DNA of 64,000 bases from Williamsia maris (GTDB lineage: Bacteria; Actinomycetota; Actinomycetes; Mycobacteriales; Mycobacteriaceae): the NCBI RefSeq assembly GCF_024171815.1, contig NZ_JAMTCJ010000001.1:124001-188000 (forward strand), read 5' to 3'. How positions within the stretch are numbered: the stretch's first letter is position 1; every line of letters begins with the position of its first letter. Of the stretch, positions 60,155-64,000 are shown piece after piece. The notes under the pieces were generated by a model. The model saw nothing but the letters and a program-made list of their open reading frames with translations. It was not told the DNA's origin and made no database searches. The position numbers were made by a program, and so were the translations under genes.

Positions 60155-60745
60155 TCAGCCCAACCTCAGCCCGTGCGCCACGGCGAAATCGACGGCGTGC
60201 GCCGGATCGACGGTGGTCTCGGTGACCGTCGCCTGCAGCCAGAACGTCGCCTCGACGCGCGCGCCCCGCAGGTCCGAGCCGGTCACCGTGGCCCCGACCG
60301 CGCGGGCCCCGGACAGGTCGACATCGGTCAGATCGGCGTCGACGAGGCTCGTCCCCGACAGGTTGACCTCACGCAGGCGAGAGCCCCGCAATGTCGCCTT
60401 GTGGATCTTCAGACCACCCAGTGACACGAGCGTGAGGTCGCAGTCGGTCATGGTCACCGCCCGCAGGAGCGACTCGGAGATCATCGAACCCATCAGGCTG
60501 CAGTCGGAGAAGACCGCGGAGGGCATCGGACTGCGTCGGAACGTGCAGTTGCGGAACGCGCTCTGTCGGTGCCGTGAGTCGGCCAGGTTGGCGCCGGAGA
60601 AGTCGCAGTCGGTGAACACGACGGTGTCGGTGCTCAGTTCCCGGAGATCGGCGTCACGGAAGGTGCAGTTCTCGAAGGTGTCGTGTGTGAACTGTCGTTC
60701 GCTCAGGTCGGCTTCGTCGAACGATTCGTCGATGTGGTCGGTCAC
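60155..60745 (-). CDS. mfpA: MfpA-like pentapeptide repeat protein
   Basis: 196 residues of A(D/N)LXX-type pentapeptide repeats, e.g. [19 protein letters not shown] and [20 protein letters not shown], and a C-terminal [12 protein letters not shown] like that of M. tuberculosis MfpA (Rv3361c). The right-handed beta-helix of MfpA mimics B-form DNA, binds DNA gyrase and lowers fluoroquinolone susceptibility. Here its GTG start overlaps the stop of a rhomboid-like membrane gene by 4 nt instead of following the conservon-type genes of mycobacteria. Confidence 0.85.
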
Positions 60746-61610: not shown

Positions 61611-62075
61611 GTGTTCCGACTTTTGTTCCATGAGCCCCGCATACCGCCCAATACGGGCAACGCGATCCGGTTGGCGGCCAACACCGGCTGCGAGCTCCAT
61701 CTGGTCGAACCCATGGGGTTCGACCTGACCGAGGCGAAGGTGAAGCGCGCGGGCCTGGACTACCACGAGATGGCGTCGGTGACCGTCCACGCCGATCTCG
61801 CGGCCGCCTGGGCGGCGCTGGCCCCCGAGCGGGTCTACGCGTTCACCGCCCACGCAGAGAAGTTCCACACCGAGGTGCAGTACCGACCCGGCGACGTGTT
61901 GCTGTTCGGACCAGAGCCCACCGGGTTGTCGGCCGAGGTGCTCGCCGATCCGCACGTCACCGAGCGGCTGCGTATCCCCATGTTGGCCGGCCGCCGGTCA
62001 CTGAACCTCGCCAACGCCGCGAGCATCGTCATGTACGAGGCCTGGCGTCAGAACGGTTTCGACGGCGCCGTCTGA
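61611..62075 (+). CDS. trmL: tRNA 2'-O-methyltransferase of the SpoU/TrmL family
   Basis: 154 residues, SPOUT knot methyltransferase. N-terminal EPRIPPNTGNAIRLAANTG, central LLFGPEPTGLSAEVL and C-terminal IPMLAGRRSLNLANAASIVMYE are the three SpoU motifs; the short single-domain length fits TrmL, which 2'-O-methylates the wobble nucleotide of some tRNA-Leu. Corresponds to spoU (Rv3366). GTG start at 61611. Confidence 0.92.
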   Translation: MFRLLFHEPRIPPNTGNAIRLAANTGCELHLVEPMGFDLTEAKVKRAGLDYHEMASVTVHADLAAAWAALAPERVYAFTAHAEKFHTEVQYRPGDVLLFGPEPTGLSAEVLADPHVTERLRIPMLAGRRSLNLANAASIVMYEAWRQNGFDGAV

Positions 62076-62085
62076 CGCGCGTGTC

Positions 62086-62111
62086 CGGGCCGCGGCGGCA
62101 CACCCGGCCCG
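62086..62111. terminator. hairpin between trmL and the reverse transcriptase
   Basis: CGGGCCG (62086-62092) pairs with CGGCCCG (62105-62111) in the 40-bp convergent gap; no U-run. Possible terminator for either gene. Confidence 0.4.
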
Positions 62112-62115
62112 CGGA

Positions 62116-63402
62116 TCACCAGACGACGCGGGATGCCATGTCGAGCAGTTTGTCTCGCCGGGCCGGGCTCGTGGCACCGATCCAGGCGATCTTCCCGTAG
62201 ACGTGGGCCCGGAAATCGGCGTGTCCGTCGCGGTTCTGGGCGGCCCCGCCGGTTCGGATCGCATTGTGCAGCAACGCCCGCAGTGCGTCGTGATCGGCGC
62301 GCGACACCTGCGGGCGATCGTTGACGACAAGACCCGCGAGACGCTGTTGCTGGTGTGCGTACATGATCCGCGTCTTGGCCGGGTGCACGGTGAAACCCTC
62401 GTCGGCGACGACGCGCAGCACGGTCCACAACACCCGATCGGCGTCCATCCGGTCGCCGGAGAGCGCGAGGTCGTCACCGTAGCGGGTGTATCGCAGGTCG
62501 TTGCGCGTCGCGAACCCGGCCAGGCGCCGATCCAGACCGCGCAGAACCAAATTCGCGAGGTGCGGCGACGTCGGCGCACCCTGCGGGAGATGGCGCTCGC
62601 GCAGGAGGCCGGCGTGGATCGGGTCGAGACCGCGTAACGCATCGGGCGGAGTCGCGGTGGTGCAGAGTTCGGTGAGGATCCGGGCAATCGCCGACGAATA
62701 CCCCACTCCGGAGAACACGCGTCGGACCCGTCGGGCGTCGATCGACTCGAAGCAGTGCCGCAGATCGACTCGGAGCACCACCGGACGATCGGTGTGCGGC
62801 CACGCGAACGCGGCCGTCGACGATCCACGTACGAATCCGCGAGCGGCCGGATGCGCCGGGATCCGCTCGATCAGACGACGCAGCAGTCGACGCTGGGTCT
62901 CGCGCATGCGAGGCTTCGGGGCCTCGATGATCCGGAACCCGTCCCGCTTCTCGACGCGGAACACGCGATAGTGCCGCAACGGTTCTCGCGCCTGACGCAA
63001 CCATCGGCCGCGGTCGGCGAACCATTCGAGCTCGCGGACCGTGAAGTTCAGCCAGTGCGCGAGCTGTTCCACGTCGTAGATGTCGGGCAGGTCCTCGGGG
63101 ACCCGACCGGTCGATGCGGGTTCGGCGAGCACGAGGACGGTAGGCGGCGGCGGCTCGACGACCGGAGGCGCGACCGTCCAATCACGCAACGCTGCGACGA
63201 TTCGGCTCTCGATGTCATGCTCATTGGCGTCATCGGTTTCGACGCCGAACAATCGTTGCCCCACCGAGTCGGCGAGCTCCGCCCTCACACCGGCACCGAT
63301 GAGGGCGCGCTGCATTTCCGGCCAGGTCCATCCGGTGAGATGGGCGTCGACGTACGAGGCGATCTCAGCGGCCTCCTCTATCGAGAACTCCGGCTCATCC
63401 AC
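62116..63402 (-). CDS. retron-type reverse transcriptase
   Basis: 428 residues from GTG 63402. Residues 1-105 are an N-terminal extension of unknown function ending in a Pro-rich linker; 110-428 is the RT. Motifs: EAPKPRMRETQRRLLRR (160-176), catalytic Asp213 in VLRVDLRHCFESI, QGAPTSPHLANL (274-285), YGDD (308-311, catalytic Asp310-Asp311) and GLVVND (357-362, the VTG-like region of retron RTs). The retron region X NAxxH position reads FAWPH (199-203). Order and spacing fit myxobacterial-type retron RTs. Upstream in-frame starts at 63489 would fall inside the msr-msd-like segment. Neighbours are trmL and dnaE2; no separate effector gene is adjacent. Confidence 0.88.
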   Translation of the reverse strand: MDEPEFSIEEAAEIASYVDAHLTGWTWPEMQRALIGAGVRAELADSVGQRLFGVETDDANEHDIESRIVAALRDWTVAPPVVEPPPPTVLVLAEPASTGRVPEDLPDIYDVEQLAHWLNFTVRELEWFADRGRWLRQAREPLRHYRVFRVEKRDGFRIIEAPKPRMRETQRRLLRRLIERIPAHPAARGFVRGSSTAAFAWPHTDRPVVLRVDLRHCFESIDARRVRRVFSGVGYSSAIARILTELCTTATPPDALRGLDPIHAGLLRERHLPQGAPTSPHLANLVLRGLDRRLAGFATRNDLRYTRYGDDLALSGDRMDADRVLWTVLRVVADEGFTVHPAKTRIMYAHQQQRLAGLVVNDRPQVSRADHDALRALLHNAIRTGGAAQNRDGHADFRAHVYGKIAWIGATSPARRDKLLDMASRVVW

Positions 63403-63431
63403 GCGCGAACCCGGGCACGATCGACGACGAA

Positions 63432-63605
63432 GTGGCGATGGACCGCGGGCGAGGTGACCAGCAACTCGTGAAGCGGCGCCGCGAAGCACGCGCAGCGTGC
63501 CGTCCGGCGTCGGACGCAGGGACCAACTGTGCGGTGTACCCAGGGGTTACCCCTGAGACGGGTCGTGACGACCCACTCTCACCTCGCCCGCCGTCCATCG
63601 CCCAC
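63432..63605 (-). ncRNA. candidate retron msr-msd non-coding RNA with a1/a2 repeats
   Basis: A 22-nt inverted repeat with a single mismatch bounds the segment: 63579-63600 (a1, 5' in RNA sense, ending GAGGTGA) and 63436-63457 (a2, starting TCACCTCGCC). With a 1-nt bulge both arms extend about 4 bp outward (GTGG/CCAC). Inside, in RNA sense: GAG-T-GGGTCG-TCA-CGACCC-GT-CTC (63578-63555), AGGGG-TAA-CCCCT (63554-63542), CGTCCG-ACGC-CGGACG (63516-63501) and GCACGC-TGC-GCGTGC (63500-63486). It lies between the dnaE2 stop and the RT start, 30 nt before the latter. Branch G and msd end are not determined. Confidence 0.8.
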
Positions 63606-63622
63606 GATGGTGCCACGGACGA

Positions 63623-64000
63623 TCACTGCCAGTCGCGGGATCGGGTACCGACCTTGAGGTCGAGCCGTTGCAGATGTTCGGCCACGACGGTGACCGCACC
63701 CTCGGCGTTCTGCACCGTTCCGCGGATCATCAGGGCCGTCGCGCTCTGGGCGAGCTTGCGATACCGCTTCCACAATCCGACCGAACAGACGACATTGACC
63801 ATGCCGGTCTCGTCCTCGAGGTTGATGAACGTGACCCCCGAGGCGGTGGCCGGTCGTTGACGGTGGGTGACGGCGCCCGCGACGAGCACCCGGGATCCGT
63901 CGCGCACCGACAGCAACCCGTCGGCCGGGACGACGCCCATCGCCGACAGCCGAGGTCGCAGGAACTGCGTCGGGTAGACCGTCGGCGTCACGCCGGTGGC
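63623..64000 (-). CDS. dnaE2: error-prone DNA polymerase DnaE2, C-terminal part
   Basis: Partial: about 125 C-terminal residues; the 5' part lies beyond the window. GAVTHRQRPATASGVTFINLEDETGMVNVV is the OB-fold region characteristic of DnaE-type polymerases, and the short tail HLQRLDLKVGTRSRDWQ matches DnaE2 rather than DnaE1. Synteny with Rv3370c downstream of spoU supports this. DnaE2 mediates damage-induced mutagenesis. Its stop is 18 nt before the retron a1 arm. Confidence 0.88.
   Translation of the reverse strand, partial: ATGVTPTVYPTQFLRPRLSAMGVVPADGLLSVRDGSRVLVAGAVTHRQRPATASGVTFINLEDETGMVNVVCSVGLWKRYRKLAQSATALMIRGTVQNAEGAVTVVAEHLQRLDLKVGTRSRDWQ

Follow-up and report, generated by a model that had tools for sequence, protein, structure and literature searches.

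Long a1 and a2 repeats are typical of myxobacterial-type retrons. Among these, Mx162, Sa163 and Mx65 are described, in passages of a 2019 review, as having an N-terminally extended reverse transcriptase (RT) and no obvious mobile element (PMC6868368), both features that, on a comparison by description only, recur in the retron of Williamsia discussed here. Passages of the same review assign the experimentally shown msDNAs, as of 2019, to Alpha-, Delta- and Gammaproteobacteria, and mention putative actinobacterial retrons by citing two works, one of them a Rhodococcus ruber genome paper (PMC6868368); in the parts of the latter that bear on the matter, a retron-type polymerase is named only in a figure legend (PMC6498646). 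A search of the literature on retrons with dnaE2, on mycolate genera and on Rhodococcus non-coding RNA, with the main catalogue lying outside its scope, brought up, among the papers listed, no description of the RNA family. Retrons as such are already known, and the RNA family can only be called possibly new.

The locus that we analyzed belongs to a 64,000-nucleotide stretch of Williamsia maris DNA (hereafter, the window), and was compared with 40 loci fetched from the family and the order as stretches of 7-13 kb, giving 41 with the window itself. The reading as a retron is supported by a conserved, covarying RNA, by the association of this RNA with the RT, and by the profile, sequence and fold matches of the RT. 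It is very probable, in our assessment, that the window locus holds a bona fide, stand-alone, two-part retron operating through priming and msDNA in the manner proposed below.

Architecture of the RNA-RT unit

In the window, the retron unit consists of two parts on the minus strand, a structured RNA followed by the RT. The 3' end of dnaE2, the stop codon of which ends at 63623, is located upstream on the same strand, and the convergent trmL (61611-62075) lies downstream of the RT. The RT and trmL stops are separated by 40 nt (62076-62115, unstranded) that are G+C-rich, with an inverted repeat discernible by eye, and that are too short for any further gene; the T-run rule found no terminator in this gap. 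The original prediction had the retron wedged between trmL and dnaE2, which is correct for the window locus but does not extend to the family, only part of which sits there. A pentapeptide-repeat protein gene is encoded at 60155-60745, on the minus strand.

The RNA is delimited by a 24-nt inverted repeat (63434-63457 with 63579-63602), with 23 of the 24 positions (96%) complementary and the arms 121 nt apart; the 22-nt repeat with 21 matches that was initially noticed is contained in it, with the same spacing. The minus strand of 63432-63605 folds at -108.4 kcal/mol, compared to -81.0 +/- 4.2 in 200 shuffles (z -6.5), and the predicted fold consists of an a1/a2 stem plus several hairpins. The a1 arm (63579-63602, minus strand) and the a2 arm (63434-63457, minus strand), delineated by the inverted repeat and by the comparison of cognate with non-cognate arms, form helix 1, where 73% of the cells are paired and 17 of the 24 pairs show two-sided changes. 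The first base after a1, in a GAG motif, is the candidate branching or priming guanosine (63578, minus strand); a G occupies the inner end of a1 in 30 of the 31 aligned sequences, and its position after a1 agrees with the description given for retrons in the review passages cited above (PMC6868368). Msr hairpin 1 (63560-63574) corresponds to helix 2, with 94.8% of the cells paired and two-sided changes in 4 of 5 pairs, and msr hairpin 2 (63536-63559), with its AGGGGTAACCCCT core, to helix 3, with 97.7% paired and two-sided changes in 5 of 10. The msd hairpin (63478-63508; all three hairpins on the minus strand), the predicted template for msDNA, encompasses helices 4 and 5 (97.6% and 99.4% paired, two-sided changes in 6 of 9 pairs), and is also reflected in the DNA fold of the predicted cDNA; we infer both the boundary between msr and msd and a cDNA that would begin opposite 63458. 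The window RNA had no Rfam match at E <= 1. Compared with near relatives, one locus (L090:4834-5068) has about 30 extra nucleotides in the region of msr hairpin 1.

The RT (62116-63402, minus strand; 428 aa), recognized through PADLOC, RVT_1, the AlphaFold model and PDB fold hits, comprises an N-terminal helical extension (about residues 1-75), the RT domain and a C-terminal region. The mechanically called open reading frame, ending at 62116, starts at GTG 63489; because this codon is inside the RNA, the start was set at GTG 63402, the first in-frame start codon after a2, and the same rule was applied to the homologues, whose starts are therefore no independent proof. The motifs first spotted in the window (Asp213, YGDD and GLVVN) are borne out by the alignment, with D213, Y308, D310, D311, G357 and N361 identical in 41 of 41 RTs.

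The window RT is matched by the PADLOC profiles RT_other (6.4e-168) and RT_outgroup (2.1e-160) and by Pfam RVT_1, and, among NCBIfam models, by retron St85 with 165 bits, below the model cut-off of 235, against 50 for group II and 33-35 for DRT. Hits 1-14 of the PDB sequence search are retron RTs, two of which are labelled only polymerase and count as retron RTs by the fold search, at 107 bits versus 27 for group II; with the AlphaFold model (mean pLDDT 91.3), hits 1-18 of the PDB fold search are all retron RTs. Profiles, sequence and predicted fold all assign the enzyme to the retron lineage, in line with the original prediction, and neither group II introns nor DGRs or DRTs are the best match by any of these three routes. 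Region X reads FAWPH and region Y reads LAG in the window RT, the canonical NAXXH and VTG not being present; across 40 RTs, the N, A and H of region X occur in 0, 34 and 40 sequences, and the V, T and G of region Y in 4, 9 and 40, respectively. These departures count among the points against the retron reading; variants also occur in validated and predicted retrons. According to the relevant passages of two papers, NAXXH is found in 14 of 16 validated retron RTs (PMC6868368) and VTG in 47% of retron-like RTs (PMC4244168).

The RT is under purifying selection, with dN/dS of 0.091, 0.192, 0.18, 0.115 and 0.128 in five pairs. In the N-terminal extension, predicted to be helical in the AlphaFold model, W25 is kept in 40 of 41 RTs and the mean column identity is 19%. 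This domain has no Pfam match and no fold match (best E 1.1), and given the outcome of the fold search, a known effector was rejected as its identity; neither Pfam nor the fold search detected a second domain in the RT.

Conservation and covariation of the RNA, and a promoter-like element

The RNA core is present at 40 of the 41 RT loci, L073 being the only one that lacks it. An automatic criterion for a1/a2 (arm score of at least 11, gap of 110-175 nt, expected place) is satisfied at 33 of 41 loci, and 7 of the remaining 8 have the same core with weaker arms. Thirty-one of the 40 core-bearing sequences were aligned and the other nine were held out. RNAalifold yields 30 pairs from this alignment, 19 of them with compensatory changes; in a 48-pair structure, to which the a1/a2 stem was added by hand from the window and the consensus, 85.5% of the cells pair, and 32 of the 48 pairs show two-sided change. 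There are 140 covarying cells compared to 52 in shuffles, and none of 500 shuffles reaches any of five measures. When partners were slid as a control, paired cells fell to 36-50% and the covariation score dropped from 0.288 to 0.099 or less, with two-sided change still retained in 13-22 pairs. The outer end of a1/a2 is the weak part, where pairing fails in up to 20 of the 31 sequences. Nevertheless, the arms match as pairs: an a1 forms 14.65 of 20 pairs with its own a2 versus 12.37 with a foreign one (0 of 2000 permutations), and with both anchors optimized, 25 of 40 cognate pairs score above the 95th percentile of the 240 non-cognate pairs.

A covariance model, R1, recovered all nine held-out loci at E <= 1e-6, and did not recover L073. 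Under strict filters, with 40 candidates scored per genome, R1 matched 19 of 61 related genomes, at a single place in each; all 19 belong to the 24 genomes that have an RT hit, and the 37 genomes lacking one gave no match. Of the five RT-hit genomes that were missed (G039, G046, G034, G042 and G040), G039 and G046 revealed the RNA once the locus alone was searched, and G034 and G042 have weak RT hits. In other orders of the class, R1 matches L231-L235 with 14.6-48.1 bits (E from 0.023 to 4e-10), with no match in L236 and none convincing in L238, and four of six such loci (L231, L232, L233 and L235) have inverted repeats at the corresponding position. Thus, the repeat and the RNA are conserved with compensatory changes, and the model tracks the RT-bearing genomes, which is the outcome expected for a retron on the two comparative checks, conservation of the repeat and covariance modelling, attached to the original prediction. 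A structured msr-msd RNA, flanked by a1/a2 repeats, lies directly upstream of the RT on the same strand, as in retrons.

Immediately upstream of a1, at 63607-63615 on the minus strand, is TGGCACCAT, a TGGCANNNT element that resembles an extended -10 element, with CA in place of the usual TA, and that was singled out by its recurrence upstream of the RNA core. It is found there at 25 of 40 loci, compared with 34 of 7342 control windows, 19 of the 25 being placed 59-61 nt before the core, and TGNTANNNT occurs at the same place in 0 of 40 loci; the peak of this element in the column profile is partly built in because rows were chosen by such motifs. A sigma-70 scan gave no match. The element is probably the promoter of the retron RNA, and its distance would put the RNA start at or near a1. 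Given its recurrence upstream of the RNA, at sites other than dnaE2 as well, read-through from dnaE2 as the sole promoter is unlikely. Together, the dN/dS values of 0.09-0.19 and the TGGCANNNT element suggest a working, self-transcribed retron.

Distribution, genomic sites and neighboring genes

RT matches at E <= 0.001 were obtained in 24 of the 61 related genomes and in 102 of 301 genomes of the family, some of the latter being weak hits to other RTs; in the class, 11 of 246 genomes match the RT profile at E <= 1e-20, 8 of which do not belong to the family. Among 15 named records with the RT, one from Williamsia is the closest (90% identity), followed by Gordonia and Rhodococcus, so the Gordonia relatives assumed at the outset are not the nearest ones. 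A record named Kitasatospora arboriphila (L105) has an RT 66% identical to that of the window, over the range 105-428 that is also matched in Williamsia muralis records; this could be a mislabelled or mixed assembly, or a transfer. Next to a Burkholderia RT with 46% identity (L226:3683-5032), in ordinary gene surroundings, the same RNA was not found (9.6 bits, E 0.3), and this locus is possibly a related retron with another RNA.

The history of the unit appears to be one of persistence with occasional horizontal transfer. In a tree of MetX and TrmL, G006, which has the retron, is sister to G002, which does not, so the presence of the retron is labile. In the RT tree, the dnaE2-site copies require four changes, at least three of them forced by well-supported branches, and a single clade of nine of the dnaE2-site RTs is rejected (AU p 8e-8), which implies that the unit has moved; strict vertical inheritance is likewise rejected for g1, the genus of the window's own genome (p 6e-5). 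A grouping of G004 with G006, which was named after the tree had been seen, gives p 0.013. Because deep branches are unresolved, the number of moves is not fixed. Within this sample of loci, 30 of 40 rows in the RT tree sit away from the dnaE2 site: at one Gordonia site, the gene content varies, and the flanks there hold varying genes and provided no clean empty site; the Tsukamurella unit is located in the stretch from polA to rpsA, and, as these two genes are carried on it, "plasmid 5" of Tsukamurella looks chromosomal. RT matches in pieces or with stops occur in G018, G078, G275, G292 and G301, apparently broken or split copies (L022/L025 in G018, for example, with an adjoining R1 match of 33.6 bits); these, and two congeners without the unit, indicate that the retron is dispensable. 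Transport as phage or plasmid cargo was considered and rejected: a viral-contig scan with six peptide patterns gave no match, 13 phage records show 33.1% identity or less with none covering 80%, and 1 of 96 plasmid records, from Dietzia, covers at least 80%.

At seven of the ten occupied dnaE2-trmL junctions, only the retron is found between the two stops; these junctions are 1487-1628 nt long, with 6-131 nt from the RT stop to the trmL stop. The RNA core lies 53-68 nt past the dnaE2 stop at 7 of 10 loci of this site, and at one locus (L083), 2.2 kb precede it. Two loci of genus g11 have 518-522 nt after the RT, where an ORF of 138-139 aa without a Pfam match lies ahead of trmL (L061:6610-7026, L082:6138-6557). 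In the congeners G002 and G007, dnaE2 and trmL are 10 and 19 nt apart, stops included, with no RT. At the window locus, there is no linked effector gene and no recognized fused effector domain of the tripartite types I-XIII, and we do not file the retron under any of these types.

Comparison of ORFs of at least 70 aa around the 40 loci, the RT aside, revealed that relatives of any one ORF are confined to 9 or fewer of the 39 other loci, and those reaching 9 are dnaE2; sharing across sites within 2 kb of the unit is limited to a few locus pairs, mostly at 26-43% identity. Two order-level loci, L068 and L071, have a neighbor gene in common (82% identical), and in Tsukamurella, an HAD-like gene starts 28 nt after the RT. 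At L090 and L092, a 91-aa gene, 90% identical between the two, lies directly 3' of the RT (L090:6414-6686, L092:6572-6844) and encodes a YrhK-like protein (PF14145, 1.2e-24) of membrane type, hydrophobic by eye. Owing to these YrhK-like and HAD-like genes, the stand-alone state is not proved family-wide. From genus g6, in which this arrangement was followed, 15 RT loci were fetched; RT identity to L090 is at least 84% in ten of them and 62-65% in the other five. YrhK follows the RT match by 0-57 nt at six of the ten (the L270-L275 series), and is absent from the other four and from the five more distant ones; since the downstream flank is common to nine of the ten, these represent in essence a single site with the gene present or absent, and the tenth, L270, has YrhK with a different downstream flank.

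Proposed mechanism, rival explanations and relation to known retrons

Drawing on what is known of retrons for the promoter, the priming guanosine and the msDNA, we envisage that transcription from the unit's own promoter just upstream of a1 would run through the msr-msd RNA into the RT gene. The a1/a2 stem would present guanosine 63578, the 2'-OH of which would prime the RT; starting at 63458 and proceeding inwards, the RT would copy msd to give a short hairpin DNA of roughly 60-90 nt, and RNA, DNA and RT would remain together as a working complex. We regard the unit as a real, conserved retron, without a linked effector at the window locus, that is probably functional and for which msDNA is predicted. 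That the complex senses phage or stress, with the output provided by the N-terminal extension of the RT or by a protein encoded elsewhere, seems to us about an even bet.

A conventional tripartite anti-phage retron, the effector of which would be encoded elsewhere in the genome or reside in the N-terminal extension, with the YrhK-like protein a candidate where linked, is a plausible alternative that falls somewhat short of an even chance. Described retrons act with toxic effectors, as far as the source passages go, and the near-invariant W25 in a helical domain, the YrhK gene next to the RT at 6 of 15 loci of one genus, and a YrhK gene elsewhere in the window genome, on a separate contig, are all compatible with this possibility, as is the frequency of RT hits, which occur in 23 of 44 genomes with YrhK and in 79 of 257 without it (Fisher p 0.009, uncorrected for kinship). 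However, the window locus has no room for another gene, the N-terminal domain is poorly conserved and without a recognizable relative, YrhK is missing at four loci that have closely related RTs and share the downstream flank, and it is present in the RT-less G002 and G007 and had no match in the RT-bearing G003, G017 and G023. On these last grounds, YrhK as a general partner is not supported; it is a candidate partner in one g6 subclade and not the missing part at the window locus.

The changes of site between genera, the scattering of dnaE2-site RTs over the RT tree and the empty site in two congeners would also be expected of a selfish retroelement that maintains itself by moving from one intergenic site to another and brings the host no benefit. 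This explanation appears improbable, considering that there is no mobility gene at the window locus, that each of the 19 matched genomes has a single RNA match, and that the viral-contig scan was negative; moreover, because the Gordonia site is a general variable spot, the moves may stem from ordinary gene flux. The regular spacing of the RNA core behind dnaE2 hints at a module in which msDNA or the RT would work with the error-prone polymerase in DNA-damage tolerance, but most RT-tree rows in this sample are elsewhere, the TGGCANNNT element recurs at other sites, and G002 and G007 have dnaE2 without the retron, so that this module is very improbable, and a functional link to dnaE2 as a general rule is rejected, given that the unit occupies different sites in other genera. 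Hardly any weight, and slightly less still, goes to a non-retron, DRT-like defense RT accompanied by an unrelated non-coding RNA: an RT with an upstream structured RNA is also the arrangement of DRT2, in the passages on that system, but the DRT profiles score far below the best NCBIfam retron profile, and the a1/a2 architecture covaries.

Going back to the two-part retron that we favor, a more sweeping version is conceivable, though less likely than not: an effector-free family of actinomycete retrons, with its own promoter and msr-msd, would be under strong selection and would have passed from one intergenic site to another as nothing more than RNA and RT, with the msDNA-RT complex working, perhaps via the N-terminal domain, without a dedicated toxin, and one subclade having recruited the YrhK-like protein. 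In any case, a well-conserved two-part actinomycete retron makes it possible to study the role of a retron that has no toxin linked to it, and adds, for high-GC hosts, an RT together with an RNA model and a promoter-like element.

The best-studied retrons have a toxin gene alongside, and the window locus, unlike them, has none. Retron-Eco1 (Ec86), the best PDB match of the window RT in both sequence and fold, with 26% identity in the fold alignment, differs in its shorter RT and linked effector. The nearest profiles are those of untyped retron RTs: all 40 aligned RTs match both RT_other and RT_outgroup of PADLOC at E <= 1e-20, and in the window RT, the match includes most of the N-terminal part, although these are profile names only, to which the material consulted attaches no effector, RNA or function. 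Retron-Eco5 (Ec107) is, in the review passages, a plain intergenic unit without signs of mobility, like the unit here (PMC6868368), but the PADLOC Ec107-like profile scores 181 bits with the window RT versus 558 for RT_other. In the same passages, Mx65 has GAGC at the branch, which resembles the GAG of the Williamsia retron, and Mx162, Sa163 and Mx65 are described as vertically inherited (PMC6868368), whereas here a single clade of dnaE2-site copies is rejected.
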